Positions 14,846-62,185 of a stretch of 64,000 bases of DNA are shown here, in pieces (positions within the stretch are counted from its first letter, which is position 1; each line of letters begins with the position of its first letter). The notes under the pieces were generated by a model that saw nothing but the letters and a program-made list of their open reading frames with translations, was not told the origin of the DNA and did no database searches. The position numbers were made by a program, and so were the translations under genes. Source of the stretch: Rhododendron vialii. Lineage: Eukaryota > Streptophyta > Magnoliopsida > Ericales > Ericaceae. Location: the NCBI RefSeq assembly GCF_030253575.1, contig NC_080566.1, forward strand, positions 13,424,501-13,488,500, in the 5' to 3' direction.

Positions 14846-15165
14846 ATGTTATTTTAATAAAATGCGGACCTCACAATCCCGATCAAATTTTGATGATCCG
14901 AACCGTTAAATGTGATTATAACATGACTTTAAGAGTCCACGGGAGAAATCAGCAAAAAATATAACCGGAAAATGCTTGATCTGAGTGGTTTTCATTGAAT
15001 GGTTCAATTAAAAATTGCTCAAAACAAGCACTTTTCGATCATATATTTTTTGTTAATTTCTCGTGGGAACTCTTAAAATCACATTTTACACACATTGAAC
15101 GGTTTAGATCATCAAAATTTCATCAGGAAATGGGAGGTCCGCATTTTAACAAAATATGTGATCCC
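14845..15165. mobile_element. Palindromic MITE, copy C
   Basis: Outer ends taaaatgcggacctc / gaggtccgcatttta are perfect mirrors. Inner arms carry gatcaaattttgatgatccg and its mirror, and 'agcaaaaaatataacc' against 'tttttgttaatttctc'. Same family as A, B and D. Confidence 0.75.
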
Positions 15166-15254
15166 TCACTTGATCCGTGGTATGTGTGCGTGCGCGCGCG
15201 CGCACACACACACACAAAGCTTCTACTAAGGGTGCCCTTAACTTGTTAAGTTAA

Positions 15255-15480
15255 TGACTTTCTTTTCCTGATCAAATTTTGATGATCAGAACCGTTCAAT
15301 GTGTGTAGTACGTAATTTTAAGGGTACACGTACGTGAGAAATCAGCAAAAAATATGATCGGAAATGGCTTAATTTCAAGCAGTTTTTTCATAAAAATGCA
15401 TGGAATCATCAAAATTTGATCGGGAACAATCTCAAACTCATGAGGTCCGCATTTTACAAGAATAAGGTCGCCCTTAGTAA
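15255..15480. mobile_element. Palindromic MITE, copy D (internally deleted)
   Basis: The left arm (gatcaaattttgatgatcag, agaaatcagcaaaaaatatg) is complete. The right arm keeps only the outer part (atcatcaaaatttgatcggg, gaggtccgcattttac). The inner right arm is missing. Confidence 0.65.
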
Positions 15481-29635: not shown

Positions 29636-29829
29636 CCTCCTCCTCCTCCTCCTCCTCTCTCTCTCTCTCTCTCTCCCCACACACACACACACACACACTT
29701 CCCATTTCTTAATCAAGTGCTTTTAGAAAAAACAAAACTCCCACTAGTTTTTAGAAAACTCCCAATTCCAGTTCCTCCCTTCCACTTCACCTCAACCCAG
29801 TTTTCAACAACTACAGACACGCCACTGAC

Positions 29830-29868
<39 letters not shown>
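29636..29868. repeat. (TCC)n, (TC)n, (AC)n and (AG)n tracts before PP2C
   Basis: A cluster of simple repeats lies at 29636-29698 and a long (ag)n tract at about 29832-29867, just before the PP2C start codon. They are probably in the promoter and 5' UTR. Confidence 0.85.
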
Positions 29869-29869
<1 letters not shown>

Positions 29870-29876
29870 ATTGAAG

Positions 29877-40656: not shown

Positions 40657-41483
40657 TTTCAATTCCAGGTCTTCCCTTCCACTTCACCTCAACCCTGCTT
40701 TCAACAACTACAGACACGCCACTGATCTCACAAAGAGAGAGAGAGAGAGAGTAACTGCAATTCTCGGACGGAGAGAGAGACAGAGAGTATGTTGAAGATG
40801 TTGGAGTCGTGTTACAGGCCGCTAGAGCGGTGCTTCGGTGGCGGCGGCGACGGAGACGGACTTCCTTGGCACATGGACTTGAAGCCGCACGCCTCCGGCG
40901 ACTACTCGATCGCGGTAGTTCAAGCTAATTCTTCGCTGGAGGACCAGGGGCAGGTGTTCACCTCCCCTTCCGCCACCTACGTCGGCGTTTACGACGGCCC
41001 CAAGGCGTCTCGGTTCATCAACTCCCACCTCTTCCCTTACCTCCACACAGTAACCACCGAACCCTAATTTCCTCCTCAATTTTCCGTTACAATGATTATA
41101 TGTATATCTTGTATGGTTGTTCACTGTGTTATACCGCCATCAATTCTTTCAACTTTGGATGCAATTTCCCATAGAAAGTCCTTTTTTTTTTAATAGCTCA
41201 GGAGTCCGGCGCTTACGTGTACGAACTAATCGAACTCCGCTAGCGGAGCCCTAATTAAAGCCTGCAAACGAACCAAGAACCAAGCTTCACGTGAGCAGTT
41301 CTTGGCTCGGCTCATTTAGTAATTAAATTGAGCTCAAGTTTTTAGCTCGTTTACTAAACGATTCAAGCTCAATACTTTAAAGCTTGGCTTATGTCGCAAA
41401 AGATTGGCTTGTTTGTGTAGGCTCAGTTGGTTTAAAGAGACTTATTAAGTAAATTAGTCTGACTTGGCTCGTTAAGGGCATCC
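40657..41483 (+). pseudogene. PP2C duplicate, exon 1 piece
   Basis: Copy of 29763-30558 (5' UTR, exon 1 and start of intron 1). The frame starts [18 protein letters not shown] 9-bp deletion turns the metal-binding DGHGGPEAS into DGPKAS. The exon end reads ccacacagtaacc instead of ccacagtaacc, two extra bases at the splice donor. Similarity stops at 'gttaagggc' (about 41483), where unrelated sequence begins. The matching exon 2 lies 12 kb away on the other strand. It cannot make an active phosphatase. Confidence 0.88.
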
Positions 41484-41536
41484 GCACAGGACTCTTTAAA
41501 TTTTTGACCAAGTTATACTTTATCAAATGGCAAAGT

Positions 41537-42476
41537 CTTATCTTTCGAAAGCCGTTCTTTCTTCCTTTGTGGGAAATTCAAAACAACATGTGTTTACTAG
41601 AGTAAAAGTCGTTTATTAAACATACTCATACTTCCATTAGCAAAATAAGTTTGTTAATTATCATGCATTCCAAACATTATAAGTGATAGATAACCTTATA
41701 TACTTAGAGAAAGCGATTAAGGATATTCTATATTATACTTTCAACTAGAGAGTAAGGGCATTCTACTTATACTTAGAGATAATGAGAACGAAAAATATCT
41801 ACCGTTCTTCTTGGCAGTAGGGCGGCTACGGAAAATGAGTTGATGATCGGGCTGAGTGACTTCCTACGGTAAGCTTCAGGTGGCTTCGAAAGAGAAAGGT
41901 TTCTCTCGAAACTAGATCTTGGCTAAGCTACTAAACTTTTTGGATCGAAAGGGTGGTCGAGTAGCTGTTTAGTGGCGGCTTAGGATGAGTTTCTTGAATA
42001 ACTCAAGAAGAAACTCAAGAACACCAAGAACAAGGAAGAACAAAGTAAGAATACAAGATTTCTAGAGAGAGAAGTTGTAAGGTTTCAAGGTGTGAGTTGA
42101 ATGGTAAGTGAGAGGTTCTATTTATAGCAAAACTAAATTCTATTACCCAATGAATAAAATTTTCCCTAATAATTATTGTCCAATGGTTAAAAGGGCAATT
42201 ATGATAGGTATGGTATTGTCTTGTCCTAAGAAAGCTTTCTTGCAAGAAAGGATAAAATGATATTTAGGCTAAAGAGTAGTCTTCCCATGTCTAGTCAATC
42301 TTAGGTCTAGGTTGGAAGCAAATCTAGGATATTAAGGCTAGGATTGTGTGCTTGAAAAATACTAGAAATAGGTTGTCACATTGTACTTAGGCTTGAGTGT
42401 GAAGATGGTAAAAGAGATAGCTTGCTTGAGTGACCAAACACATGCACACACTTCACTCTTTCTCTCACTCTCTCGG

Positions 42477-42514
<38 letters not shown>

Positions 42515-43428
42515 ACTACATATATATATATATATGTAGTATAACCATATATGTGTACTTAGAGAATCTAGAAAAGTAACTTTGGTGGGTAATTTTAGAG
42601 TTAGGGCTATAAGTCTTAGGTTTGTATGTATGGCAAGGCTAAAGTTGCTTCTTTTAGAACCAAAATAATGACTTCTTTTGGTATGACTTGTCTTATCAAA
42701 TATATATACACTTTGGTAAGTATAGTTGCTATTATCCAAGAGATAATATTTTTCCTAGCATTTACTAACCAAGGGATAATGATGATAGGTATGACTTTAA
42801 TATGTCTAATCAAATCTAAGTTCTCATTATGGCAAGTTCTTCTCCTATTACTCAAAGGACAAAAATTACCCTAACAACTATTGTTCAATGGGCAAAGAGG
42901 AAAATGATGGGAATGAATATATTCTTGGAAGGAATATTCTTTTGAAAGTGACCTTTCAATTGAGAGAAAGGACAAAGCACTTTCTAGGAAAGTGACTTGA
43001 CCAAGTAAGCATGATGATGACCTTCCTAAGCCTAGAAGGTTCATAAGGGTTGGAGGGGTTCATAAGGCTCAAAGATGGTCAAAAAGGTCCATCTAAAGTT
43101 AGGAGAATGTAACTAGGTTAAATGGTAATTAGGTTTCTCTGGTTGGAAACTAATTCTACTAGCCAAGTAGGATTTCTAGTCAAGAAATGTAATTTAAAGA
43201 TTTTATTTAACTCGCTAGAAAAATATACAAGTGCTTTTATAAGAATACTTGTCTTTAGAAAATGACTAAATTATTCGGTGCGAAAAGATAAAATTTTGTA
43301 AGTCTCAAATCTAATTATGACAGATTATTAAAGTTAAAAGAAAATTTTAAGAGCAAAAATTCAAGTAATTAAAATAAAATTTAAATATATAACGAAAGTT
43401 TTGTTTACCAAAAATCAGGGTCGTTACA
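41537..43428 (-). mobile_element. 5' part of a split solo LTR
   Basis: Reverse complement of the 5' portion of the LTR at 9079-11910 (about 9079-10693). It starts TGTAACGACC at 43428, with the same TATA region (about 42117-42127) and the same (TC)n/(AT)n tract. It breaks off at 'agataagacttt' (about 41537). The flank at 43429-43433 (TTACA, i.e. TGTAA on the minus strand) equals the flank after the 3' part at 56731-56735. Confidence 0.88.
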
Positions 43429-43433
43429 TTACA

Positions 43434-44467
43434 AGCTTCACAACAATAAGATTCAGTAAAGCAAAAAAAAAATTGTATATATTCTTGTGGAGTTGATGGA
43501 CAGAAACAACATATGTTAAGTTCCTCTTGTGGTCAAGAATTTCATTAAACGGCAAGGTTTTGTACATAGGAAACTAATTAAGTGGGAAAAATAGAATCTC
43601 CTCTTCTCCCACAAACAAAGATCCCCAAACCTTTCATAGCTTTTCGAAGGAAGCGATACTAACTATAGAATACATACGGATTTCTATACAAAAAATTACG
43701 AGATGGGATACGTTCGAAGGGTATGATAACATATGCTATAGAGTAATTTTGTAGAGACTATGGGAGTTGTGTCTTGGGTTAAAAAACCAACAGATAAATG
43801 AATAACTTTAACCGAGCTAAGCACATAGGCATAAAAAATTGGTGAAGTTCATATTATATTCCCATGGAGTATGGATAAAGAAATACCCCTAGGTTTAAGA
43901 AATAAAAAATAATGCAAACACATTCCTCAAGCATGACACGACAAAAAAAGAGAGTTTAAATACAGCCCCTCTCACAAAAACTAAGAAAATAGCCCTACAA
44001 TTCATCCAAAAAGAGAGTTCCAGAGTTTGGTTGGAGAGTCAACTATCTCTGGCGATGAGTTTGCCCATGTGATAATATTTTATAACATGTGTGTGCTAAT
44101 CTAATTTGGCAGCTAAACAACCACTAAAATGGGCTAGAAAGGTATGAACTTAGCTATGCAAATTATTTGAATGTTCTATATGAAAGCTAGCTTCAAAATC
44201 AAAATTAAAATTGCAAGCCAGAAGGCTGATTAGAAATACAGAATTCTCATCTATGAATACACCATTAGTTACAATAACATATGAATCACAAAGGCAAGGG
44301 AAAGGCAACACAAGAAGATCAAGCATACGATAATTGTGAGAATGTCGTCCTCGTGTCAAGGAAAATATTAGTACATTTTAGAGCCAAGTTCACTAACGCT
44401 TTGTTTGTGTTTGGGAAAATATTTTTCCGGGGATTGACCATGGGGTAGGTATAAAACAAAAGGAAAC
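43434..44467. other. Gene-free spacer
   Basis: A/T-rich. I saw no domain-bearing frame, element end or repeat match in this stretch. Confidence 0.4.
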
Positions 44468-44790
44468 ACAAAAACCTTTTTTTTTTTTGATCGGCACAAT
44501 TTTTTTTATTAATCCACGAACCGAAGGTACAAAGATTAATAGGAAACGGGAAAAAGACATCACAATCATCGACCTACATCCCAACTATGTTGGCACCTAG
44601 ATCGCGGATAATCATATGCCACCTGTCACCCAAGAAAGGAAAGTTGGCAAGAAGCCAACCACCAGAAAAAGATCGAAAAACCAGCAGAACATATAAACCC
44701 CAAAATAGACAGGGGAACGCAAAACAAACCAACATCAGTCCATATTGCCAGATACAATTTGAAAATTTGAGAATTGATCATTGTTGATGA
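44468..44790 (-). repeat. LINE/SINE 3'-end fragment
   Basis: A poly-T run at about 44478-44489 is followed on plus by 'gatcggcacaattttt' and 'attaatccacgaaccgaagg'. On the minus strand this is a 3' end (...ggttcgtggattaat, then an A tail), similar in style to the element at 12373. There is no reverse-transcriptase domain and no verified target duplication. Confidence 0.5.
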
Positions 44791-45058
44791 CTTTGTGAAC
44801 TTCAAAACCTCATCCAATCCAGGTGCTTTATTGGAATATTGGACGGCAACCTCATCAAATATTCAGTAAACACATGATATAGCAGGAATGACACTTGCAA
44901 AAACTATCCATCAATCTTCATACATCAGCGACACCATGGATGAGTATTACCTTTGGGCATGAAACTCATAAATCACAGTACCGGACTACATGATCAGAGG
45001 GAGAGAGCAGTATCAAAGAACAAGAGTTCCAATCTTCTACCGCCAAACACACAACAGG

Positions 45059-45638
45059 TGATGTAGAACACGTGGAGGCCCAATTTCATGATCAATTAGA
45101 CCGGTCGAAGCCTCGGAAACCCAAATGTTGTTTAATTGCAAATTACCCAATATGGCAACTTTCGAACGAGCTCGGATCGGGCCCAAACTTGGTGGGCTGA
45201 CTTATTTTCGCGTTGCGGTCAATACGCATAACCCTAGTTGATGATCAATGGTGTTTTTGGGCCTAATTCCTTCGATTAGGCCTCAAATTGGACGTTTTTG
45301 CCGTTTTAGAAAATATTTGTTTTGTTAATAACTTTTAGCGTATAATTTATAGAAGTTGATTCTTTTTGGGAAAGTCATGTTTTTCTTTCCTTTTTCCAAT
45401 TTTATTATTTTTCCCAAATTTTGGGAATTTTCTTTTTTGAGTTAGGGTTTTGCTAGGGTTACGCCTTTTTCCTATAAAAGGGGTTCTAACCTAATGTCTA
45501 AGCAGCTTTTTATTAATAATATTCAGACTTTTGTCTTTTTCTCTTAAGGGTTCAAGAACTGTTCGTGGCTACGATCGAGTACCTATCATTCGTTTAATTA
45601 GTACGCAACTAATCTCTCTCGTGAATTCCACTGCGTCA
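45059..45638 (+). mobile_element. 580-bp solo LTR
   Basis: Starts TGATGTAGAACACG, ends CTGCGTCA, and is flanked by ACAGG on both sides (45054-45058 and 45639-45643). It carries a TATA box (cctataaaag, 45471-45480) and an A/T-rich U3-like region. No internal domain is attached. Orientation is inferred from the TATA box. The superfamily cannot be assigned from the LTR alone. Confidence 0.75.
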
Positions 45639-46009
45639 ACAGGAGAGGGGAGTAAACAGATCGTAAACACTAAAAAACCTAATTAAACGTAAACAGATGG
45701 AAAGAGCTTTCGATCGGCAATCAATTAACAGGGAATAGTGATTTACCTACATTATTTGCAAAAATATGACCAAAATCTATGAAATACCTCATATCCTGCG
45801 GCGACAAATTGAGCTTGAGAGAAAGCTTCAAATAGAAACGAGTTGCGGATAGAGATGGAAGAGTGGTGCCGTTTTCTTCCAATCATCAAGACTCCTTTGA
45901 GTACGTAGCTGGAAACTTTGGAGGAAGCTGTATCGATCTGGAGTCCAGATTGGCAGATTGTGAAGGACGTTGTGGGCAAAGATGCCCTATTAGAAATGTT
46001 GATTTTAAA

Positions 46010-46275
46010 TAAAACAAGTTCATTGTAAAAACAGCGTAGTTTTATGTCTCCAAATAAGTGTCCTATTAACCCTATCTTTTTCGAGACACTTTCAACTGTC
46101 CTATCATATTAAATTAAAATAATAAAAAATGTTAAATTCGAAACAAAGAAGTTTATTACAAAAAAATGGCGTAGTTTTATATCTCCAAATAAGTGTCCTA
46201 TTAAATCCAGTTTTTGAGGCACTTTCAACTGCCCTATCGTATTAAATTAAAATAATAAAAAATGTTAAATTTGGT
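46010..46275. repeat. Two tandem units of about 134 bp
   Basis: The sequences 'gcgtagttttatgtctccaa' and 'gcgtagttttatatctccaa' begin matching units that continue through 'aagtgtcctattaa', 'cactttcaactg' and 'aaataataaaaaatgttaaa'. The units differ by substitutions and small indels, so the duplication is not recent. Confidence 0.8.
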
Positions 46276-46794
46276 GTCTAGGCTGACTGCCGCAATTGGG
46301 AGAATCAAATGGAGCACTTTAGGAGGTGGTGCCTCGTTAATAACTTGATAAGGCAGTGTAGAAAAAATGCCATTTTGAAAGTGCCCGTAAATCCCCATTT
46401 TGTTGTACGTGTCGACAATTAGAAACGGAGGGTGTACAACCTTTTAAGCCGCTCATAAGAGCTGGCTGTAACATGGTTGGTATTATTTAGTTATTAATTA
46501 TTATCTTCTATTAGAATTTCATTATAAAGTTTATGTCACAGCATTTTTCTCGAATAAGAGAATTAGAAAAGTATCAAAATATATGCAAAAGTTGAAAAAA
46601 GTTCAAACAATACGATGAAAGTCTGAAAAAAAAATTCAGTATTTTAGTGTCTTTAAAGTCATTTTAACTGAATTTTTGTCAATTTTAGTCTATATATTTC
46701 ACACCTTTTAAATTCTTTTCGTCGAGACAATTGAGAAAACAACTAAAAAATATTCTGTAAATAAGTTCAAAAACCGAGGCCAGAGAGGGTCTAA

Positions 46795-46990
46795 TTAATC
46801 CTCCGTTCTACATGTGAAATTTTGTGTAATATTCGACTGAAAGTATAAACTATTTTTCTTCATATCTTTAAGCATTTATTTAAATAAATAATTGAGATCT
46901 TTAATTTCTTGAAAAACATAAACATATTACGCATTAAAATATATACACGATATTTCATAATGGACTAATGATTTAGAATGGAAGGAGTAT
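46795..46990. repeat. Degenerate Stowaway-like MITE
   Basis: The sequence 'aatcctccgttctacatgtg' faces 'atttagaatggaaggagta' across an A/T-rich centre of about 160 bp. Weak inverted termini of the CTCC..GTCC type. Confidence 0.4.
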
Positions 46991-47394
46991 TTGTTTTCAA
47001 TTATTTTTGGCTTTTGAAAGGACAAGTACTCATTAACGTTGCTTGTAAACAGTTTTTAAATTTTAAGCCGCTATTTATATCCATGTTTTTCTTCAGCAAT
47101 TTTTTATCAGATACCGAGCAGTCTTTTAAGGATATATAATATTTGTTTTAGTCTAGTTTTCACTGAAAAAATCAATTCATTGACATCCATAATTATAATT
47201 GTTCTATGCATTTAATTTTTTATATATAATTTTTTTCTATGATGTTAAATAAAATTAAATTTATTTTCTAAAATGGTCAGGCCATGTCATCATGTTATTC
47301 CATACTTTGGACCGCTGGAGCGGTATTTATTCTGTCTCCACATTTCTTAATTTTCTCAAGAGAAAAAGAAAAGAGCACTCAACTTTTTTTATAA

Positions 47395-47642
47395 GGTGAA
47401 ATTACACGAACATCCCCTCATCTATTCGGTTTAGACACGGACACCCCCTAATCTTTAAAAACGCCCATGGACACCCCCTCATCTTCTACCGTTACCCAAG
47501 GAGCACCCTTCCATTTGAGTACCGTTTGTTGCACGGCAAATGTCAATACTTTTGCCAAATTTTAGACAAAAATGCCCTTTAACGGCAATATATACCCAGT
47601 TGTCTTTCATACCTCATTCCTCATTCTCATTTTATATCAGAG

Positions 47643-47741
<99 letters not shown>

Positions 47742-48650
47742 CGGCAGCCGTGGAAGGTAGCAAGTGGCAACAATAGCTATAGTAGCCACCATAGCCACAC
47801 CAACAACAGATCTAATAGCTGCAGTTAGAGCTACAACTCCAACCAAACCCAAAATTGGGTCGATTCCTACTGCCGTTGTGGAGAAAAAGCCCCCTAGAGG
47901 ACTTCAAATACAAAATGGATGACAAGTAAATGCAAAACAACAAGAGCCCCAATTTTTAAAGGTTATCGAAATCACCACTGTACCACACCTTTCAAAAAAC
48001 CTTATTATTCCCAAACAAAAACCCTAATGTATTCATATATCATATAATATGAACATATACATCTACATTTGCACCATTTAGTAAGAAAATTTAGGATTTT
48101 TTTACATATAAAACATACCTTCTAAAGTAGGGTTTGCCACAATCTACAGCTTTTCTACAGTGTACACGATCCGATGTTCTTCGAAACTTAGGTTTTCTTC
48201 ACGATCTAGGGTTAGCCATGATCTACAATGCAAGTTGAAGAAGGAGAGGAAGAGAGACAGAGGCGCCATGATCGAGTAGAGTGGAGAGAATTTTTTGATC
48301 AAGTGAAGTGTGGCGTATGCTTGTTGCTCCATTTCATAACAAAGGGTATATTTGACATTTCGTTCATTCCGTTAACGGCGTTGAGGTTTTTTTTTTTCCT
48401 TTTCAATAGATGAGGGGGTGTGTATGAGCGTTTTTAAAGGTTAGGGGGTGTTCGTGTCCAAACCAGATAGATGAGGGGGTGTTCGTATAATTTCACCAAG
48501 GGTATATTTGACATTTCGTTCATTCTGTTAACGGCATTGAGGTGTTTTTTCCTTTTTAGTAGATGAGAGGGTATGTATGGGCATTTTTAAATATTAGGGG
48601 GTATCCGTATCCAAACCAGATAGATGATGGGGCGTCCGTGTAATTTCACC
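47395..48650. mobile_element. Mutator-like non-autonomous element with 9-bp TSD
   Basis: The termini GGTGAAATTACACGAACA and its mirror (ggacgcccca..., ending GTGTAATTTCACC) extend about 100 bp as a terminal inverted repeat of 'acaccccctcatct' text. The flanks are TTTTTATAA at 47386-47394 and 48651-48659, a 9-bp target duplication typical of Mutator-like elements. The right terminal region is present twice in tandem (about 48345-48497 and 48499-48650). The interior contains a long (TC)n tract and non-repetitive sequence near 47740-48260 that could be captured host DNA. No transposase frame. Confidence 0.78.
47644..47738. repeat. Long (TC)n microsatellite
   Basis: About 47 uninterrupted tc units. 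Predicted Ser/Leu repeat proteins across it are an artefact. Confidence 0.95.
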
Positions 48651-49134
48651 TTTTTATAAATGCAGTACTCCAAATGTTTTCTTTTTTTAGTACTTAGAAT
48701 TACACACAACAGAAGCACTTAAAAATAAATAAATTATGGAGTGCATTTATAAAAAAGAGGAGCGCCAAAATTATTTTTAAAAAAATGACAAGTTTTGACA
48801 ACCCCGTTGTACGCTTCCACCTCCCACATTTTATTCACATGACATAATGTCAAGTGTGACATTCCCTTATCTTTTGTGATTAAAAAGATGTTAATAAATC
48901 CTGGTTTTCATGGTTTTGGGTTTTGAGAAGTTTTTGGGTGCCGGGTACGACACATATGGTATCTCGTTGGCGATCACAGTCATCCACACGTGTTTTGGAC
49001 GTTTCAGATTTTAGAGAAAGAAAAAGAGGCTAGGAGAGAACTAGAGTGATGGGGTGAGGGGAGAAAGAATGAATAGATCTGGACCGTCCAAAATATGTTT
49101 GGACGGTTAAGATCGCCGACAAGTACAAGCTCGT

Positions 49135-50557
49135 TAGGAGTGTTATTCGGTCGGTTCGGTTCGGTTCGGGGTGGATTTCCCGCACCCCGATCGGGTTCGG
49201 GGTACATAGTCCGGAGACCGATCCCGACCGGTATTAATTTCGGTTCGGTTCGGTTCGGTTCGGTTCGGTCGGGGCGTTCGGGGCGTTCGGTCCGCCCGAA
49301 ATGGGCCTTAGTTGGGCCATTCTAAATACTAACAATAGACTACGGGCTATATTTGGGCCATTTTTTCACCCATATTTGGGCCATTTTCACATGTTTCTCA
49401 CCCATATTTGGGCAATTTTCAACCTTAAGTCAATCACCCATGTTTGGGCCATTTTTTCACCCATATTTGGGCCATTGTACGGTTTGTACCTTCTTTCTTT
49501 TTTTTCAAACACCAATTGAAAAAAAAATTAACATACAACAACAGGGAGAGTATAAAAAGAAGTGCTACAATACTAACATCCATTTGTTTTTCCAACCTTC
49601 AGAAAGCTTACTGGTATCGTATGGAGTAGCCATGGGAGATTTTTTTTTTTTTTTTGCTTAACTCGTTGGAATTGAAAGACCTAGGAAAATAAAAGGCACT
49701 TGAAACTTGAAAAGAAAGCATAGAAGAGTAAAAGGGTCATCTAACTAGAAACAAAATTTTCTCCTAGTTCAATAGTGCATAACCTATTTAATACCTGTGC
49801 AAGTTCCTATTTAAGTGGTCAACAAGTATGCTCAAACAATTACAACTTTCACAAGTACTCTTTCACCTTTTTTTTTTTTTTTTCCAATCGATTGGAAATA
49901 TCTTCTACACTACTATATATAACTTGGAGGACTTAAAGTAATTTAGAACACAGAGAGCAATCGATTGGAAAATTTTGCAAAAACGTCCCCATCTTCGCCC
50001 AACTCCGCTTTATTCAAAAGGAAAAGAAAAAGCCACGGTTATTTAAGGTGTAAAATTGAGCCAATGTGTGGAACAGCATTCCCAATCCAGGCAGAAGAAA
50101 TTGGATTGGTAAGTAATATCACCCCTAGGCCCCCTCTTTCAAGTCAAGTCCTAAAAACTATACTTGATCTGACCAATGAGAGTAACAAAGTAAATAAATC
50201 AAGCAATGAAATTCCAAAAAAAAAAAGTAAGAGCCAAAAGTTAACCATTCAAAATTTTGTTGGAAGTTAACAAATTAAAACAATAAGAGCCAGAAAATTA
50301 AAATAATTTATATAAATATATAAAATATATAATTCGGTCGGTTCGGCCTCGGTCGGTTCGGTCGGTTCGGTCCGCATTCGGTTCGGTTCGGTTCGGTCGG
50401 TATAGATTTCCAGAAAACCGAGACCGAACCGACCTAGGTTCGGTTCGGTTCGGTCCACCCCGAACCGAAAAAAAACTCCCTTGGACCGACCGAAGACCGA
50501 ACCGATCGGTCGGTTTTTTCGGTCTTTTTCGGTCCGGTCGGGTTCGTAACAGCCCTA
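49135..50557. mobile_element. Nested hAT-type element with 8-bp TSD
   Basis: The 8-bp repeat AAGCTCGT flanks it at 49127-49134 and 50558-50565. The termini TAGGAGTGTTATTCGG and, mirrored, TAGGGCTGTTACGAACC are of the TAGGGNTGTTA hAT style. Both subterminal regions carry long (ggttc)n / (gaacc)n arrays in inverted orientation (49145-49290, 50335-50470). The interior has a 'tatttgggccat' minisatellite and a short frame at 49965-50270 of unknown origin. No hAT transposase domain is recognisable, so it is non-autonomous. Confidence 0.78.
49346..49476. repeat. Minisatellite of 'cccatatttgggccattttt' units
   Basis: About five imperfect units of 20-32 bp lie inside the nested hAT element. The reading frame across them repeats WAIF/HIWAI-like text and is not a gene. 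Confidence 0.8.
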
Positions 50558-51062
50558 AAGCTCGTGGTACCTGCTCGGCACCCAAAAATTTCTCATTTTC
50601 AAGGATCACACAGGTTGTTCTATGATCCTTTTAAGGATCACTCCAATTGTATTCAATATTTAGTGTGTTTTTTCCAGAATCATTCACCGTGAACATCTAC
50701 ATCGATTATCGCAGGAATGCCTCTCGCTCGTGAATGAGTTTCGATCATCTTGAGTTGACTGTTGGGTAAAATGAAGTGAATCACTCACATAAAGCGCAGG
50801 CGGGTGCGAGAGCGCGAACTTGAAAGTTTCTTTCAAAAACAAATTTTGTGTATGAAGATTGAGATAGCGAGGGCAGTAGCATAGCGACAATTATTTAAGA
50901 GTGAAAACAAATGCCATGTTGAAGAATTATGAGACTAAGATCATGTTGCGAATCTTTTGGCCAAAAACGAGACCCAAATTCTATATTTAAACTGTATTTA
51001 AAACATTGTTAAAAAAGTTTCAAAACAATCTTATAATAAGTGTCATGATGTCATAATACAAA

Positions 51063-51367
51063 GAGTGCTGCTATTGGTATAGCAGTGGGGCACAGACAGA
51101 GTGTACATCGCATATTTGGGCCCGTCTCTGGTCCAACAAAGATAATCGGAGCTACTTATTTTGTTCAATATATTCTAAAGCGATTTTGGACGCTTCGTAA
51201 ATGCCCTTATCGATGTCCGATGGAGCTGAATTTTTTTACGGGGAACTTAAGTAAAATATATTAAACAAAATGAGCGGCTCTAATTATCCTTGTTGGACAC
51301 GAGACGGATCCAAGCGCGTGTTGTACGCGTTGTCTGTGCTCCAACTGTTGTACCAGCAGCATTTCCG
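51063..51367. mobile_element. 305-bp palindromic MITE with 9-bp TSD
   Basis: TAATACAAA flanks it at 51054-51062 and 51368-51376. The arms are mirrored: gagtgctgctattgg against ccagcagcatttccg, gtccaacaaagataat against attatccttgttggac, cttattttgttcaat against attaaacaaaatgag. The 9-bp duplication suggests mobilisation by a Mutator-like transposase (inference). Confidence 0.78.
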
Positions 51368-51570
51368 TAATACAAATAGACACTGTATAAAGTATTTCCA
51401 AAAGTTTCTGACGACTTTTTTATTTTATTTTTTATAATTGCATTATAACAATTCCTAACATTCACCTCGAGAGACTTCGTAACCTTTTTAAATAATTCAT
51501 ACTAATAGCAACTTAGCAAGCCAAATTGATTTTACAATGAGATGAGAATGCCGAAACAGATAGGAGTTTT

Positions 51571-51712
51571 GAGAAATTTTTGGGTGTCGAGTGAGTATCA
51601 CGTGATGCCCGAGCACGCATCCGGCCTCCATTTTAGCTTTGGACGGCTCGGATTTGAAGAGAAAAAAAGAAGAAAGAATGTTTCAATCTGAACCGTCGAA
51701 CACACACCATGA
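51571..51712. repeat. Solitary end of the 'tttttgggtgcc' element family
   Basis: 'ttgagaaatttttgggtgtc' followed by 'ggacggctcggatttgaaga' resembles the outer element at 48925. It abuts the end of the duplicated PP2C segment at about 51713. Confidence 0.4.
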
Positions 51713-52028
51713 GTACTTTGCTGCCACTATTCACAGATGAAAAAAGGGAATTTATTGTCAACCTGTTATTTTCATGTTTAAGGATAGCTTGAACAACTTA
51801 TCAATGTTATAGCATCATTTCAATGGATTCATCTAATGATACCAAAATAGTAAAGTATTGTACAAACGTGCATCTCCTGTACGGAAAGGTAATACAACAT
51901 TATCAGCACACTTTTAGCAAATCACTAGGACAAAGACACATGAGGAAAAGAACACTCAAGTAGTGTTAGTACCAGTAGCATGATTAATGTTCCACTTTTT
52001 AGGTCTTGATGTGCATCTCAAAACACGT

Positions 52029-52232
52029 TTAGGCCCCGTTTCGGTTTATCCTTTAAAAAATAAATATTTATTTATAATTTTTAAATTTTATAATAGGTTT
52101 AGTTTTAAGATCTATCAAACCCTGCAAAAAAAAAAATTAAAAAATTATTTTCATAAATTCATTATTTTTAAGTTTGAAAATAAGTTTTTTATTTTCTAAG
52201 TATTTTTTTTGGAATGTGGAACCACTTTTTAG
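52029..52232. repeat. Insertion (about 200 bp, A/T-rich) in the duplicate
   Basis: Relative to the parent intron, about 200 bp lies between 'catctcaaaacacg' and 'agcctcatcaacc'. It begins 'taggccccgtttcggttt', the style of PIF/Harbinger or hAT MITE ends. The right end does not mirror it, so the type is uncertain. Confidence 0.5.
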
Positions 52233-52880
52233 CCTCATCAACCTACCACACTTCAACTTTGATGGGGAAAGGTGGCCCACACGGCAGCGCATGCCATGTA
52301 TACAGAAATAAATCAATGCTAATGGGGAAAGAAACTATTATCAGATTCTCTCCAAATGCAGATCACTGTTTATGATAAGGAAGATGATGGACTTCTAAAT
52401 AGTCGAAAAGAGAAAGTTAAAGGAGCACTAACATAGGAACAGTACGTATTTTCCGTGCAGGTTAATCCTCCATCGTAATGAGTAGTACCCTTGATGCGAT
52501 GAAAAAAGAAATTAAATTTCTTCCTGGTGTTATTGTTGTCTATCTGGAGAATAAAGTTGAACAACTTATTATCAAGGTTATTGCACCAGGAGGATCAATC
52601 CCAAAATATGTTCTTTGGAAAAGAAAAACAATAAGAAAATGCATCGCACATTCCAAAGGCAAGTTAAGAGCAAATCACCCAGACTTAAAAGAGGAAAATG
52701 AAATATTTCCACTAGTGTCGACACGGAACAATACTACACTTTTTTGGCGTTGATGTGCATCGCATGACACTTAAAAGGATATGAAGAGCGTCATTTTAAT
52801 CATATTATCCTCACTCGATGTCAGCTTCGAAACAAGATTTATCCTCCTATGATCTCAACAAAGTACAATAGCAACTTAAT

Positions 52881-52956
52881 TGCTACCTCTTCCTAGTCAG
52901 CAATTGCCTAGGTAAGTTTGGTAGGTGAAATTACCCTCTTGCCCTCCCTCAAAAAA
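52881..52956 (+). mobile_element. Short SINE-like insertion with 20-bp TSD
   Basis: The 20-bp sequence AAGTACAATAGCAACTTAAT occurs at 52861-52880 and 52957-52976. The parent intron has one related site. The insert is 76 bp, ends in an A run and contains cctagtcagcaattgcctag and cttgccctccctc, matching a remnant at 20045-20105. It is either very 5'-truncated or a small SINE. Confidence 0.8.
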
Positions 52957-53122
52957 AAGTACAATAGCAACTTAATCCCAGCCAACACTAGTTTATCCCT
53001 TCTAAATGAAAGCACAGAAATAAGGCATAACAGGAAAATGAAAGGTCAACAGAATACCACTTGTAGAAGATGTTGAACTATAACAATCATTACAGCAAAC
53101 AAAAGAAAACCGTAACTGCTAC

Positions 53123-53505
53123 CTGAATAATGCCCTTAATTCTCCAAACTCCACGAGTATGCACCACAATATGGGCATCATCAGGATGAAGCGCTTCAAC
53201 TTCCTTCCTCACCTCTTCAACCCCGACATTATGATCTGTTGATAAGCGCTCCGCTACCACAGCAGTGGAGTTACTCATCCGCCCATTAGACACTCTTCGT
53301 CCAAGCACCACCCTTGAATCCCCTAGATTCGCCAAGTACAACATGTCATCCGTAATCGCCCCAACAAGACCACAAGACCCAACTGATGCAATTTGAGGTC
53401 GAGCTACCCATGATCGCGTCACCAAATGCACAAAATCCTCTTCAGTAGTGTCAAACGCCCGCCTTATCACCTCAGCTGATAATCCTCCTTGTTCTAAAGC
53501 AAACC
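53123..53505 (-). pseudogene. PP2C duplicate, exon 2 piece
   Basis: Same length as parent exon 2 (383 bp), with both splice borders kept and the frame open. Protein changes include DATEED to DTTEED, SCCLVG to SCGLVG, LYVAN to LYLAN and DSRAV to DSRVV. Exons 3 and 4, with the last metal-binding aspartates, are absent, and exon 1 is on the opposite strand at 40.8 kb. It cannot encode a phosphatase. Any plus-strand transcript here would be antisense to PP2C exon 2. Confidence 0.88.
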
Positions 53506-54198
53506 CTGGGAAACCAAAATCAAAAAATGTATAAAATTCCGAATTTAAATTCCCTATAACAAGTACAATAATCAAGACTGTAGCTTCCTCACGTCCTCTG
53601 TTTTCCCTGCAATCACACAACATGCAGCTTATAAAGTTTGAATCCTCAATACCCTAACTAAGCATCTCCATGAAAGACTAAACATGTGCTCCGACCATTT
53701 CAAAAGATTGATATCAAATCAAGGAAGAACCAAGTTTATTCCAATACTTAGTAAAAGAAGCTTTTCAGGATAAGAGTGAAATTCTTCATTCTTTCAGGAA
53801 AAGGATGGTTACAATAGGCTTCAGATTTAGGTTGCGGTAATTAAAAAATAAATAAAAAATTGATCGTTAACTGTTGAGCCCTTTTTTGTGGGTGGTAATT
53901 TAGGATTTCATTGCACCAAACCCAGGAGGAATAACATTTGAGGTCAGAGCCAACAAAGCTAGTAGTGGCAAAACAACATAGCCCCACAGGCCACAGGCAA
54001 GACCTAACAGACCTCAAACAACCAAAAAAAACAACGGAAAATTGTACCCAAAAGATACAGATAAACAGAAAAAACAAAACAGCCCCACAAACCATTAGAG
54101 AGAGATAACCTAAGGAGTTGAGTTGGTAGTCAAGGCCTTGGACTTGGGATTTGCTCCTCCTAAGACCTTGCTAGGTCTCAACAATTCTCAGGTGCTAT

Positions 54199-54809
54199 TA
54201 GTGCCGGCCCACCCCCAAGGCCCAAGAGGCCCGGGCCTTGGGCATCTCCAAAATTCCAAGTTTTAAGAGCACTCAAATATGCGCAAGGCTCAAATCCCGG
54301 ACTTGCACCCCCCTGAGTGTGAGTAACTCGTGACGTGCATTCGGTTAATTGGTTTCTGGATCAATTTTTTCAAATTGCCTCGGTCTTGGCCCATTTCCCC
54401 GAGCGCGCTAGACTTCCCCTTGTGTCTAGCCACATTTACAAGCCCACTAAGGTGCATTTGTCATTTATGGTAGAAATTTTTTTTGTAACTAGCAGACAAA
54501 ACAACCACAAGATTTTAACAAATACACCAAAAATCCAAACAGATTACATACCAATTCTAATTGATGATATCCTCACATTCTGCATGTGTGAGAGAGCTAA
54601 AGCTCCACTAGCTCTAATTTCTTATGTTTTAGCTCGCTAAAACTCTACTCGCTCTAATTTCTAAAGAAAGACCCTGATATCGCTCTAGATCACTAAATTC
54701 ACCATTTAAATATGTGATTGTTGTCGTAGAAATTGTTAAGTATTAAATCTTTAATGATACACTTTTTTTTATTAGGCCTTGGGTACTAAAAATTCTTGGA
54801 CCGACCCTG
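54199..54809. mobile_element. hAT-like insertion in the duplicated segment
   Basis: It interrupts text that is continuous in the parent intron (30685-30700). The termini TAGTGCCGGCCC and, mirrored, CAGGGTCGGTCC are hAT-like. The 8-bp flanks ggtgctat / agtgctgt agree at 6 of 8. The subterminal 'aaggcccaagaggcccgggc' is common in such elements. No transposase. Confidence 0.65.
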
Positions 54810-54944
54810 AGTGCTGTCTAACTCTTTTGGGACTTGTCCATACGGGCTTTGTCTCAGCTAGGGGATGTAAACGAGCCGAGCTTCGTAGTATTCGAACTCG
54901 GCTTGTTTACTAAGCCCGGCCCAGTTGTAAACGAGCTGTGCCCT

Positions 54945-55447
54945 TAGAGAATTCGTATCAGGGACGCTACTTCCCTAATGCTACTATAGTAACCAGCCAA
55001 AAGAGGAAATTGGCCTTGCATCAGTCTGTCCTCTCTTGGCATCAAACTAACATTTGCTACGGTTCATCCTGGAAAATGAAGATGAACTGTTCACAAATTA
55101 AATATTAATTTAATGTTTTCAATTCAAACTTTTCATATTTGGTTTTAGGGTTCTCTTAAGGAGCTCGTTGAAAACCTTAAAGCCAAAAATTCATTATGAT
55201 TATTTAGGGCAAAAAGATTAGAAAAATAAGATATTTGCACCGGTTCAAACATATTAAAAATTGAAAACATGTAATTTTTTAACCATATTTTTTAATATAT
55301 AAACAATGTAAAAAATTAAGTTACCCAATTTTCAATTCGTTTGAATCGGTACGAATATCTTATTTTTTTATCATTTTATCCTATATAAGAATATTTATTT
55401 GAGAAGAGAGTAAGAGTAAAGAGTCTGATGCGGTGAACATTGTAAAA
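54945..55447. other. Sequence at the inversion/LTR junction, no gene
   Basis: It lies between the end of the PP2C copy and the 3' LTR part. It contains 'aaagagtctgatgcggtgaa' (about 55418), resembling the reversed text at about 41484-41510 (ccgcacaggactctttaaat). Both may be parts of one inserted element that carried the breakpoint. Confidence 0.45.
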
Positions 55448-56730
55448 ATGACTATCTTAAGTAATAAAGTGAGTTTTTTGATATTTAGGATGGTTATGAA
55501 CATGTATACTTGAATTACTTGTATTATTTGTCTTGTTGTAAAGCATAAATGAGCTTCACTCCAAAGGCGTCCGTACATATAGCGTTATGCTTTAAGTGGT
55601 GATTTGAGCATGAGTAGTAATATAAAGTGGAATGATCTTGCTAGTTTAGTTTCAAGATTACAATGAATGATTTATGATTACGTATGTGAAAAGTCCTACC
55701 GCAGAGTTGTTGAATGAAAACGCGACACAAAAATTGAGAAAGTAGAAACATGACACCTAGGTTGTGGTTAATGGAATGGTGTGATTTGCAAAAGAGAAAT
55801 ATTTTAGAAATTGTAATGTGGCCGAACTTTGTAGCCCATTGTGAGGAGTGCGTGTGTAAAGTATTTTCGAAAAACCAATGGGAGCCCGGAGCGGCGGAAC
55901 CATTGTGGTATACTCGGGAACCTAGAGCGGGCGGAACCGAGGGATGAATTGTGGTTTGGTTATCTGCGGAGAGGAGCCAACACAATTGGTTTAATGATTT
56001 TCGAAAACCCACATGGGAACCCGGAGTGACGGAACCATTGTGGGATACTCGGGAACCCGGAGCGACGGAACCGAGGGTTTTGAATTGTGGATTGGTTATC
56101 CGTGGATAGGAGCCAATGCCAAATTCAATGTTTTTGCGTGCCAATGGGAACCCGGTGTGACGGAACCGAGGTTGGGTGTGTTAAAAATAATTTTGAAAAT
56201 GTTGATTTGGTAAATGAAAGGAGAAACCAGTGACACGGTCTACGAAATGTCGCGTAAGAGAAACTTAAAAAATCAAGGACACCAATGTTAGATTGGATAA
56301 GTGAATGTGGATGTGTCATTGTTAACTGTTTTGTTAGATACGCATGTACTATGTGGAAATCGTTAATATTATGATCTAATGTTTGTAAGTTAAGGGTTAG
56401 TGGGTATGGATTATTCTATTGAGCTATCGTAACTCCTGGTGTTACTTTTGGTGACCTTAACATATTATACTGGTGGCAACGCTGGTATAATGTGTCAGAC
56501 TTTGTAGATGAACAGGGTGAGCTGTGCACCTTGGAGGCCTTTGGAGCTGAAGAGTTGGCTAGGATGGAAGAGCAGGCGGAGCTGTAGATAGGAACCCTAG
56601 TTTTCCTTCCATGTTTGAATAAAAGTACTCTTGTGAGAGTTATGTTGTAAATATGAGCCAGACTTTATTTAGATATTTAATAAAATTGTTTATTTAACGT
56701 TCCCAAAATCCCAAAATTAGGGGCGTTACA
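55448..56730 (+). mobile_element. 3' part of the split solo LTR
   Basis: Matches about 10700-11910 of the LTR at 9079: cttgttgtaaagcataa, ccaaaggcgtccgtacat, ggtgttacttttggtgacc, ending GGGGCGTTACA at 56730. It is followed by TGTAA (56731-56735), equal to the restored 5' flank of the part at 41537-43428. It contains a gggaacccggagcgacgg minisatellite (about 55875-56170). Confidence 0.87.
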
Positions 56731-57027
56731 TGTAAAACTTCATCAATTTGTCGTGCTTAAGTCCACCTAACATGAGGCATAAGAAGCTATCCTCCGTATA
56801 AAAAATACATTCCAGTTTCATATGAAAGCCCTTACATAGATTATGAAGTTTAACTATGTTCTATAATTTTATGTTATCTTTTAGGGATTTGTAGCACGAT
56901 GGTTTTGTGTTCTTATACATGATACATGACAGCCATTTTTCCTTATTGTATAAATATCTATTTATTCTGTTGCTTAATGATGTTGCCTTCCTACAGAGTT
57001 CTGATACCAGTTTACGAAGAAACGTAA
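56731..57027. other. Spacer before the CACTA transposase remnant
   Basis: A/T-rich. An open frame runs into the transposase-associated domain from 56907, but its first 40 residues have no recognisable match. A CACTA terminus (CACTACAAGAAA-type) was not found. Confidence 0.4.
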
Positions 57028-57649
57028 TGGATAGGAGTTGGATGTATCAATCTCGGTTGACCAATGAGTATTTAAACGGAGTAAAGGGATTCTTGAATTT
57101 CGCATTCCAAAACGCAAGTATCGATGGGAAAATTGTTCGTCCATGAGTAAAGTGTGAAAATTGCAGATGGGTGACACGATCTGAGACAGTAGACCATATG
57201 TGATGGTTTTATCAAAGGTTACACAAAATGGATAGCTCATGGAGAAGCTTTGTCATCTACTACAACTGCTCCGATTCCCAATAATTCTGGTAATACCTTG
57301 GGCACAAATAATAGCATGCGGGAGATGCTGTATGATACATTCGGGATCTCAAATAGAGATATTAGCATGGATGACGTGCCAAATAATGTAGAGTTGTCGA
57401 ACGCAGATGCTAAATTTTTTTAAAAGTTGGTAACTGATGCCCAAAAACCTTTGTACCTTGGGTGTAAAAAGTTTTCAAAACTTTCATTGCTCGTTGAACT
57501 ATTTCACAATAAGTGCCTTGGAAAATGGACTAACGACTCATTTACCCGGCTACTTCGGATGTTAAACAGGGCACTTCCAGAGAGTGAGAAATTGCCCAAT
57601 TCATACTATGAAGCAAAAAAAGTGTTGGTGGAATTAGGCTCTCGTACAA

Positions 57650-60600
57650 AAAGATTCATACTTGCCCTAATGATTGCATGTTGTACTGGAAAGAACATAT
57701 TGATGATACAAAATGTCATGTATGTCATGAACAGAGGTACAAAATTATTGACAATCATGAAGGAGCAGAAGGAATGTCAGCAAAAAAGTGTAAAAAGGTC
57801 CCCATAAAGGTTTTATGCCATTTTTCATTGAAATGTCGTAAAAAATTGAATCTTTTATGAAGTAGCATGATAAAAGTCGCACCAAAGATGGTTGCATGCG
57901 TCATCCTGCCGATTCCCTTGCTTGGCAGACTTTTGATTTCCAACATATGGAATTTGCTACAGATTCACATAATGTTAGACTTGGATTAGCGTCCATGGAT
58001 TTAATCCTTTTCAGATGATGAATAATGTTTATAGTACATGGCCTGTCATCTTGATGCATACAACATGCCACCTTGGATGTGTATGAAACAACCGTACTTC
58101 ATAATGTCGTTGCTTATACCCGGTTGTTCAGCACCTAGAAATAACATTGATGTTTATTTGCAACCATTGATAGAGGGGTTGAAAGAGTTATGGGGGGTCG
58201 GAGTAGATACACTTGATGCTTCAACCAATCAAAATTTTAAGATGCATGCTGCCTTAATGTGGACTATCAATGATTTTCCTGCATATGCAAATTTGTCTGG
58301 GTGGAGCACTAAATGGCGTCTTGCATGTCTATCATGCCATAAAAACACATGTTCTTCTTGGTTGAAATATAGTGGGAAGCACATTTACATGGACCATCAA
58401 CGATTCTTGGAGGATAGCATAAGTTTAGACGAGATAAAAGGTCGTTTAATGGAAAGGAAGAACGCCGGAAGGCACCTTGTCGCTTAACTGGGTCTATGAT
58501 ACAAGATCAACTATGATACAAGATCAGCTAAAAGGTGTTCAATTTAAGTTTGGAAAGCTAGTTAAGGATAATCCTAAGTTGCCATTCAACTGGAAGAAGC
58601 CTAGCATATTCTTCGAATTAGCATATTGGAAAGATAATTTATTGCGACACAATCTAGATGTGATGCATATAGAAAAAAATGTTTGCGACGGTGTGCTTAC
58701 GACATTGTTAAATTTGATTGGGAAATCAAAGGATCATTGGAAGGCACGCGAAGATTTAAAAGATATGGGCATTAGAAGTGAACTTCATCCCATGGAAGAT
58801 GAATCAGGTCAAACATACTTGCCTGTTACATGCTTTTCAATGACTAAAAAGGAGAAAGATATCTTTTACAAAGTCTTAAAAAATATAAAAGTTCCAGATG
58901 GGTATACTTCAAATATTTCAAGGTCTTTCCAGGACAAAGAACATAAAGTTTCTGGGATGAAGAGTCATGACAATCATATTCTGATGCAGCGATTGCTCCC
59001 ATTAGCATTGTGAAGAGTATTGCCTAAGCAAGTGTGGCCCCCTTTGATTAAATTGTGCAATTTTTTTAGAGAATTGTACAGTAAAGTTCTTCATGCTCGT
59101 GACTTGAATTGTTTGGAGAAGCAAATTGCAATAACCTTAACCTTATGTGAGTAAGAAAAGATTCATGCTTGCCCTAATGATTGCATGTTGTACTGGAAAG
59201 AACATATTGATGATACAAAATGTCATGTATGTCATGAACAGAGGTACAAAATTATTGACAATCATGAAGGAGCAGAAGGAATGTCAGCAAAAAAGTGTAA
59301 AAAGGTCCCCATAAAGGTTTTATGCCATTTTTCATTGAAATGTCGTAAAAAATTGAATCTTTTATGAAGTAGCATGATAAAAGTCGCACCAAAGATGGTT
59401 GCATGCGTCATCCTGCCGATTCCCTTGCTTGGCAGACTTTTGATTTCCAACATATGGAATTTGCTACAGATTCACATAATGTTAGACTTGGATTAGCGTC
59501 CATGGATTTAATCTTTTTCGGATGATGAATAATGTTTATAGTACATGGCCTGTCATCTTGATGCATACAACATGCCACCTTGGATGTGTATGAAACAACC
59601 GTACTTCATAATGTCGTTGCTTATACCCGGTTGTTCAGCACCTGGAAATAACATTGATGTTTATTTGCAATCATTGATAGAGGGGTTGAAAGAGTTATGG
59701 GGGGTCGGAGTAGATACACTTGATGCTTCAACCAATCAAAATTTTAAGATGCATGCTGCCTTAATGTGGACTATCAATGATTTTCCTGCATATGCAAATT
59801 TGTCTGGGTGGAGCACTAAATGGCGTCTTGCATGTCTATCATGCCATAAAAACACATGTTCTTCTTGGTTGAAATATAGTGGGAAGCACATTTACATGGA
59901 CCATCAACGATTCTTGGAGGATAGCATATGTTTAGACGAGATAAAAGGTCGTTTAATGGAAAGGAAGAACGCCGGAAGGCACCTTGTCGCTTAACTGGGT
60001 CTATGATACAAGATCAACTATGATACAAGATCAGCTAAAAGGTGTTCAATTTAAGTTTGGAAAGCTAGTTAAGGATAATCCTAAGTTGCCATTCAACTGG
60101 AAGAAGCCTAGCATATTCTTCGAATTAGCATATTGGAAAGATAATTTATTGCGACACAATCTAGATGTGATGCATATAGAAAAAAATGTTTGCGACGGTG
60201 TGCTTACGACATTGTTAAATTTGATTGGGAAATCAAAGGATCATTGGAAGGCACGCGAAGATTTAAAAGATATGGGCATTAGAAGTGAACTTCATCCCAT
60301 GGAAGATGAATCAGGTCAAACATACTTGCCTGTTACATGCTTTTCAATGACTAAAAAGGAGAAAGATATCTTTTACAAAGTCTTAAAAAATATAAAAGTT
60401 CCAGATGGGTATACTTCAAATATTTCAAGGTCTTTCCAGGACAAAGAACATAAAGTTTCTGGGATGAAGAGTCATGACAATCATATTCTGATGCAGCGAT
60501 TGCTCCCATTAGCATTGTGAAGAGTATTGCCTAAGCAAGTGCGGCCCCCTTTGATTAAATTGTGCAATTTTTTTAGAGAATTGTACAGTAAAGTTCTTCA

Positions 60601-62172
60601 TGCTCGTGACTTGAATTGTTTGGAGAAGCAAATTGCAATAACCTTAACCTTATGTGAGTAAGAAAAGATTCATGCTTGCCCTAATGATTGCATGTTGTAC
60701 TGGAAAGAACATATTGATGATACAAAATGTCATGTATGTCATGAACAGAGGTACAAAATTATTGACAATCATGAAGGAGCAGAAGGAATGTCAGCAAAAA
60801 AGTGTAAAAAGGTCCCCATAAAGGTTTTATGCCATTTTTCATTGAAATGTCGTAAAAAATTGAATCTTTTATGAAGTAGCATGATAAAAGTCGCACCAAA
60901 GATGGTTGCATGCGTCATCCTGCCGATTCCCTTGCTTGGCAGACTTTTGATTTCCAACATATGGAATTTGCTACAGATTCACATAATGTTAGACTTGGAT
61001 TAGCGTCCATGGATTTAATCTTTTTCGGATGATGAATAATGTTTATAGTACATGGCCTGTCATCTTGATGCATACAACATGCCACCTTGGATGTGTATGA
61101 AACAACCGTACTTCATAATGTCGTTGCTTATACCCGGTTGTTCAGCACCTGGAAATAACATTGATGTTTATTTGCAACCATTGATAGAGGGGTTGAAAGA
61201 GTTATGGGGGGTCGGAGTAGATACACTTGATGCTTCAACCAATCAAAATTTTAAGATGCATGCTGCCTTAATGTGGACTATCAATGATTTTCCTGCATAT
61301 GCAAATTTGTCTGGGTGGAGCACTAAAGGGCGTCTTGCATGTCTATCATGCCATAAAAAAACATGTTCTTCTTGGTTGAAGTATAGTGGGAAGCACATTT
61401 ACATGGACCATCAACGATTCTTGGAGGATAGCATATGTTTAGACGAGATAAAAGGTCGTTTAATGGAAAGGAAGAACGCCGGAAGGCACCTTGTCGCTTA
61501 ACTGGGTCTATGATACAAGATCAACTATGATACAAGATCAGCTAAAAGGTGTTCAATTTAAGTTTGGAAAGCTAGTTAAGGATAATCCTAAGTTGCCATT
61601 CAACTGGAAGAAGCCTAGTATATTCTTCGAATTAGCATATTGGAAAGATAATTTATTGCGACACAATCTAGATGTGATGCATATAGAAAAAAATGTTTGC
61701 GACGGTGTGCTTACGACATTGTTAAATTTGATTGGGAAATCAAAGGATCATTGGAAGGCACGCGAAGATTTAAAAGATATGGGCATTAGAAGTGAACTTC
61801 ATCCCATGGAAGATGAATCAGGTCAAACATACTTGCCTGTTACATGCTTTTCAATGACTAAAAAGGAGAAAGATATCTTTTACAAAGTCTTAAAAAATAT
61901 AAAAGTTCCAGATGGGTATACTTCAAATATTTCAAGGTCTTTCCAGGACAAAGAACATAAAGTTTCTGGGATGAAGAGTCATGACAATCATATTCTGATG
62001 CAGCGATTGCTCCCATTAGCATTGTGAAGAGTATTGCCTAAGCAAGTGCGGCCCCCTTTGATTAAATTGTGCAATTTTTTTAGAGAATTGTACAGTAAGG
62101 TTCTTCATGCTCGTGACTTGAATTGTTTGGAGAAGCAAATTGCAATAATCTTAACCTTATGTGAGTAAGAAA
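57650..62172 (+). repeat. Three tandem 1,507-bp units inside the transposase
   Basis: Units start at about 57652, 59159 and 60666, each spaced exactly 1,507 bp and beginning 'agattcat(a/g)cttgccc'. They differ by only about ten substitutions overall. Units 2 and 3 share several variants against unit 1: cctggaaat for cctagaaat, agcatatgt for agcataagt, agtgcggcc for agtgtggcc. The same stops and frameshifts occur in all three, so the gene was already dead when amplified. Confidence 0.95.
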
Positions 62173-62185
62173 GGATTACTCCTTT

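Follow-up and report, generated by a model that had tools for sequence, protein, structure and literature searches.

Within a 64,000-nucleotide stretch of Rhododendron vialii DNA (contig NC_080566.1, positions 13,424,501 to 13,488,500; hereafter the window), a single 13.5-kb inversion at 41484-54944 splits a partial copy of a PP2C gene and a solo long terminal repeat (LTR), and mobile DNA, in the form of miniature inverted-repeat transposable element (MITE)-like ends found at both joins, probably caused the flip. The first line of evidence is the geometry of the two split loci. Self-blastn of the window, which is the basis of both pairings, recovered two pairs of sequences, PP2C and solo LTR, each made up of one intact copy and one split copy whose parts lie on opposite strands. 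In the first pair, the unbroken PP2C reference (29763-32888, plus strand) matches the split copy from 29763 to 30555 at 40660-41479 on the plus strand, a part that holds exon 1 and the start of intron 1, and from 30594 to 32888 at 54901-51719 on the minus strand in several pieces, the longest of 1,189 columns with 91% identity (E=0). The rest of the fragment (51719-54943, minus strand), with intron 1, exon 2 and a further intron, is thus inverted; it contains a PP2C Pfam match at 53093-53653.

The second pair behaves in the same way. The reference solo LTR (9079-11910, plus strand) is unbroken and has CAAAT on both flanks; its positions 9079-10707 match 43428-41515 on the minus strand, and 10710-11897 match 55473-56709 on the plus strand. 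The 5′ part of the split LTR therefore lies inverted at 41515-43428 (minus strand), while its 3′ part lies outside the inversion at 55473-56730 (plus strand). This LTR starts with TGTAACG and stops with GTTACA, and TGTAA stands on both outer flanks of its halves: one copy of the 5-bp target duplication is now within the inversion (43429-43433, minus strand) and the second is beyond it (56731-56735, plus strand). Once the flip is allowed for, the TG...CA ends and 5-bp target duplication of a solo LTR are both present.

Flipping 41484-54944 by script, followed by realignment to both reference copies, restored order at both loci. Positions 1-926 of the PP2C reference then formed a single high-scoring segment pair (990 columns, 80.8% identity) at 40660-41617, and the main later PP2C pieces followed in sequence order; one 82-column secondary piece was misordered whether or not the segment was flipped. 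All LTR pieces now lay on the plus strand and in order, save short tandem-repeat pieces (~55863-56157) and GA microsatellite cross-matches. Because one flip mends two independent loci and one target duplication, we regard the inversion as established for the sequence as assembled, and consider it well supported.

The inversion had been proposed earlier, in a sequence-only reading of this DNA, and the self-blastn and scripted flip bear it out: when 29763-32888 and 9079-11910 are aligned to the window, both show split copies on opposite strands, flipping makes PP2C and LTR collinear with their references, and the shared TGTAA flanks are present in both LTR halves, across the inversion. Its edges need adjustment. 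PP2C homology on the left stops at 41479, not at 41483, and the final 7 bases of this left part are TAAGGGC, of which GGGC may be the element's. On the right, the shared stretch described as aagggc is present, but it is longer, reaching 54946 as TAAGGGC.

MITE-like ends at the two joins

The second line of evidence comes from the joins themselves. The left join reads TAA followed by GGGCATCCGCACAGGACTC, or equally TAA followed by GGGCATCCGCAC (in context, GGCTCGTTAA joined to GGGCATCCGCACAGGACTCTTTAA). The right join reads, on the plus strand, TTA followed by GAGAATTCGTATCAGGGAC, or equally TTA followed by GAGAATTCGTATC (in context, GAGCTGTGCCCTTA joined to GAGAATTCGTATCAGGGACGC). The unbroken PP2C reference has GTTAAGGGC at the break site, and the empty site made by joining 41475 to reversed 54943 aligns to it across the junction with no PP2C base lost. 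A TAA stands on each side of the PP2C break, as the left (41473-41475, plus strand) and right (54944-54946, minus strand; TTA on plus) copies of a putative target-site duplication. The putative element start beside TAA/TTA is GGGCATCC. The longer TAAGGGC, found at both PP2C edges, appears to be the duplicated target TAA plus an element start GGGC that coincides with the PP2C site. The duplication would be 3 bp (TAA) if the element begins with GGGC and 7 bp if it begins with ATCC; with a start at ATCCGCAC, the two edges would have 7 bp in common, which leaves room for microhomology or a staggered break.

Three MITE-like ends are discernible. End 1, GGGCATCCGCACAGGACTCTTTAA, occupies 41476-41499 (plus strand) with its outer side leftward. 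A putative MITE at 54947-55437 is bounded by end 2, GAGAATTCGTATCAGGGAC, which lies at 54947 and faces leftward, and by end 3, which reads TTCACCGCATCAGACTCTTTA in reverse complement, faces rightward and abuts the 3′ LTR half at 55437. This element is 491 bp long and contains no open reading frame (ORF) of at least 110 amino acids in the list of 34 ORFs, i.e., it is short and non-coding. At the left join, only a short end-1 piece precedes the LTR. The sequence-only reading had already noticed the MITE-like end at the left breakpoint, which end 1 confirms, and had overlooked the related end at 54947 and the third end at 55437; given these two, the event looks mobile-element-mediated at both breakpoints. 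The sequences at the left and right joins probably represent two ends of a single MITE family whose target duplication is TAA.

End 1 and the reverse complement of end 3 share CATCCGCA-CAGGACTCTTTA / CA-CCGCATCA-GACTCTTTA; the similarity runs out after ~21 bp, with 3 substitutions and 3 gap events separating the pair within 24 bp. Two nulls were used: an anchored one, built from 2,500 sampled sites beside TAA/TTA, in which the largest value (48) is end 1 against itself, and a free local test on 20,000 stretches drawn at random from the window. The score of end 3 against end 1 was reached by one of the 2,500 anchored sites, end 1 itself, and by 24 of the 20,000 random stretches. That of end 2 against end 1 was reached by five anchored sites, one of them again end 1. 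The link between ends 1 and 3 thus appears good; that of end 2 rests on position.

The transition from element to LTR is less sharply defined. BLAST places the inner LTR edges between reference positions 10707 and 10710, i.e., at 41515 and 55473, and not at 41537 and 55448 as read earlier. An extension of the 5′ LTR part past GACTTT is equalled by 30 of 1,500 random stretches, and a back-extension of the 3′ part by 278 of 1,500. From these alignments and the random-stretch test, the bases that separate end 1 from the 5′ LTR half (41500-41537) may be element, filler or LTR. A candidate 8-9 bp duplication at the LTR edges (T.ATAAAGT) was dropped, its 3′ edge being non-significant.

Counts of the end motifs were as follows. 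GGGCATCCGCAC matches the window exactly once, at the left join, and 24 times with 3 mismatches; for GCATCAGACTCTTTA the sole exact match is 55417-55431, one of its 4 matches with 3 mismatches falls at the left join, and 9 of 100 shuffles had at least 5. The pattern GCATCCGCA-N(1-6)-GACTCTTTA occurs at 2 viral_contigs loci and 19 prokaryote loci, presumably by chance, as these collections hold no plant genomes. A full-text literature search for the end-sequence motif gave no transposon paper among the titles listed. Nested in the putative MITE is a palindromic element (55207-55381) with TA on both sides and 52-nt arms (55212-55263 and 55326-55377) that are 81% complementary; we take it to be Stowaway-like.

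As for superfamily, we presume a resemblance of the ends to those of Pong/mPing-type elements. PIF/Harbinger elements make a 3-bp TTA/TAA target-site duplication, and a Medicago survey required a G(N)5GTT motif in their terminal inverted repeats, according to the accessible part of that paper (PMC2213677). GGGCATCCG has no GTT at that position. Membership in PIF/Harbinger is not proven: it fails one motif test and rests otherwise on the TAA duplication and on presumed likeness.

Origin of the inversion

In our opinion, the leading explanation, although we hold it at somewhat less than an even chance, is aberrant (reversed-ends) transposition that brought MITE ends into intron 1 of the PP2C fragment. 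In the available text of the maize work, this process starts from two neighbouring elements in direct orientation, whose facing ends enter a new site as a pair; the spacer between them is lost, the intervening stretch is inverted, the target duplication flanks the ends, and one element comes to lie inside the inversion and the other just beyond its far endpoint (PMC8225341). Applied to the window, the solo LTR would have borne at least one MITE (54947-55437) plus the facing, broken end of a second. Transposase would have seized the facing ends 1 and 2, with loss of anything between them, and the two ends would have inserted jointly into a TAA in intron 1 of the PP2C fragment, 13 kb off. Since neither end would have parted from its own flanking DNA, the segment from donor to target would have been turned, leaving both the PP2C fragment and the LTR split. 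The layout of the window is as predicted: end 1 lies inside the inversion by TAA and the 54947-55437 element just outside it by TTA, and a new target duplication (TAA or TAAGGGC) is divided between the joins of an intact empty site. The model requires two neighbouring elements, whereas one two-ended element and one end fragment are present. The maize cases use fractured Ac, as far as the portion consulted describes them (PMC8225341), so a broken partner is no obstacle in principle.

The age of the ends bears on the choice between explanations. The PP2C copies differ by a Kimura two-parameter distance of 0.072 over 2,867 sites (pieces of at least 110 columns), and they are older than the inversion. 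Set against this distance, the 3 gap events and 3 substitutions between ends 1 and 3 argue that these ends are not copies made by the event. For the same reason, insertion of a hybrid element from sister chromatids, under which ends 1 and 3 should both derive from one end by copying, was set aside, the 3 gap events in 24 bp speaking weakly against it.

It is possible, though doubtful, that the inversion preserves, as a natural fossil, a reversed-ends transposition in which a PIF/Harbinger-type MITE had a broken end as its partner, and that this superfamily makes inversions directly by its transposase and does not serve only as passive recombination sites.

Several observations weigh against reversed-ends transposition. 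The left element is ~24-60 bp long and has no second end, so that the explanation has to assume an element already broken beforehand. The LTR halves meet with no stretch missing, and loss of a spacer is expected if the elements inserted separately. In the free local test, the similarity of end 1 to end 2 is not above chance (3,985 of 20,000 stretches score equally well), and that of end 3 to end 2 is non-significant both there (6,377 of 20,000) and in the anchored test (564 of 2,500). The ends had been noticed before they were tested. No further family copy that would fix the true ends was found in the window or in viral and prokaryote collections, which contain no plant genomes. Finally, dating by the gene-wide PP2C average is weak, the intron beside the left break being 17% diverged; the right flank has 17 gap events in 165 aligned bases.

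The best of the alternatives, which we nevertheless consider unlikely, is that unrelated double-strand breaks in an older MITE of the PP2C intron and in the LTR were misjoined, staggered breaks having copied short stretches to both joins. A single element suffices here; end 3 could have arisen from end 1 by fill-in copying, and an overlap of ~25 bp between the LTR halves is possible. Inversions with short inverted duplications from staggered breaks have been described, judging from the accessible text (PMC8225341). Copies made by the event should differ no more than the older PP2C copies do, and the 3 gap events in 24 bp are, without being strong evidence, at odds with this; the possible LTR overlap is poorly alike, which again is not strong.

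Unlikely to nearly the same degree, and ranked just behind, is ectopic recombination between a TAA-flanked MITE in PP2C intron 1 and an inverted MITE in the LTR, the left hybrid having later been mostly deleted. Under it, both PP2C edges should carry TAA and the LTR should have lost nothing, and the TAA at both edges is indeed expected equally from recombination with an older MITE insertion and from reversed-ends transposition. The element at the right join (54947-55437) is two-ended, as a hybrid should be, and the accessible part of a review names this mechanism for MITE inversions of this sort (PMC12595863). A whole hybrid is, however, due at the left join too, where there is one end only, so that such an element is seen at the right join at best; moreover, the ~21 bp of likeness between ends 1 and 3 is little for recombination.

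Simple breakage with 6-7 bp of microhomology, the MITE-like sequences being incidental, is improbable. The sequence-only reading had pointed to aagggc as such microhomology, and a shared stretch does exist, as TAAGGGC at both PP2C edges. It is probably not the main point: a microhomology join leaves the stretch once, with partner sequence, so that one TAAGGGC is expected, but the PP2C stretch itself is doubled, with one copy per join. Related ends at both joins are also left unexplained. An assembly error is very improbable: the region is repeat-rich and the inversion is known here from the assembly alone, but the joins fall at element ends with a clean empty site and not where long repeats end.

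The PP2C fragment and the surrounding window

The split PP2C copy is a 5′ fragment. The reference gene has four probe blocks (29865-30128, 31430-31825, 33359-33592 and 34212-34367); in the split copy the probe matches exons 1 and 2, whereas for exons 3 and 4 it matched the reference gene only. Exon 1 of the copy (40786-41061) is open, but it reads YDGPKA where the reference has YDGHGGPEA, and the GHG of the metal-binding motif is gone. The "PP2C duplicate" of the earlier reading is thus a related copy, though by probe search merely a 5′ fragment. Because the split copy has neither counterparts of exons 3 and 4 nor the GHG, the inversion probably hit a pseudogene fragment. Its immediate biological effect looks small, as what was split is a partial copy already lacking later exons and part of DGHGG, and we argue for no functional effect. 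Intron 1 of both PP2C copies (30380-30640 and 54861-54943) contains an old repeat rich in GCTCGGCTCGTTT, and the inversion break lies inside it; the end of this repeat resembles ACACCCCTA and is presumably hAT-like.

The window as a whole is plant nuclear DNA, with the PP2C gene, a CGLD27-like frame, a tnp2 transposase and LTRs. The remainder of the inverted segment (43434-51718, minus strand) is non-coding as far as covered by self-blastn and scans. It includes, at 47393-48652, an element-like sequence whose inverted ends measure ~96 bp (83%) and which also carries a tandem repeat of 153 bp and a run of (TC)47. At 57649-62177, three head-to-tail 1,507-bp units lie in a tnp2-type (CACTA) transposase region with a Pfam Transposase_21 match at 58035-58484 (E=1.9e-52); the units differ pairwise at 7, 12 and 7 of 1,507 positions, and the triplication is either a recent tandem event or an assembly effect. 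Several related palindromic stretches cluster at 13747-15387, with 71-85% self-complementary matches by self-blastn.

Comparison with known systems

Small inversions are often ascribed to repeat recombination or random breakage. Here, two independent split loci, together with element ends and a target duplication at both joins, make the causal mechanism testable. If the inversion was made by transposase, this would suggest that short non-coding elements can directly rearrange chromosomes. That alternative transposition gives rise to inversions in plants is established in the case of Ac/Ds (PMC8225341) and proposed for VANDAL (PMC12312487), as far as the available parts of these papers go. For reversed-ends transposition by a plant PIF/Harbinger MITE, no report was present among the literature matches listed, as far as their accessible text goes. 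The kind of inversion is therefore already known in plants, and the novelty could lie in its attribution to a PIF/Harbinger-type MITE transposase.

A small inversion with MITEs at its breakpoints is known from Brassica napus, the primary study of it reportedly being Wan et al. 2022. It spans 29.8 kb (BnaC03.FBA/EFO1, cleistogamy) and, according to the portion available of a review, has a 327-bp PIF/Harbinger MITE at each breakpoint, in opposite directions (PMC12595863). The present case resembles it in being small, in having MITE sequence at either breakpoint and in affecting genes at the joins. The insertions in B. napus are, however, 327 bp long, whereas in the window the left one is a short piece of an end, a gene fragment was hit and the superfamily is not proven.

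The maize Ac/fractured-Ac inversions share with ours a transposon end at each breakpoint, a target duplication at the joins and one broken partner; in the text at hand they involve an hAT element, 8-bp duplications and ~81-kb inversions recovered as new alleles, whereas ours is an old event known from sequence, with a presumed 3-bp duplication (PMC8225341). In Arabidopsis, the accessible part of one paper describes alternative transposition of VANDAL21 in met1 soma and a VANDAL5-linked inversion of the chromosome 4 knob: there too, adjacent element ends yield plant inversions, but the elements are Mutator-type and the events somatic or very large (PMC12312487). The Drosophila inversion 2z3, attributed to ectopic recombination between Galileo elements, likewise has transposon copies at both breakpoints; as presented in the part of the study available, these are two chimeric whole elements with exchanged target duplications, whereas in Rhododendron the left element is not whole (PMC2775673).

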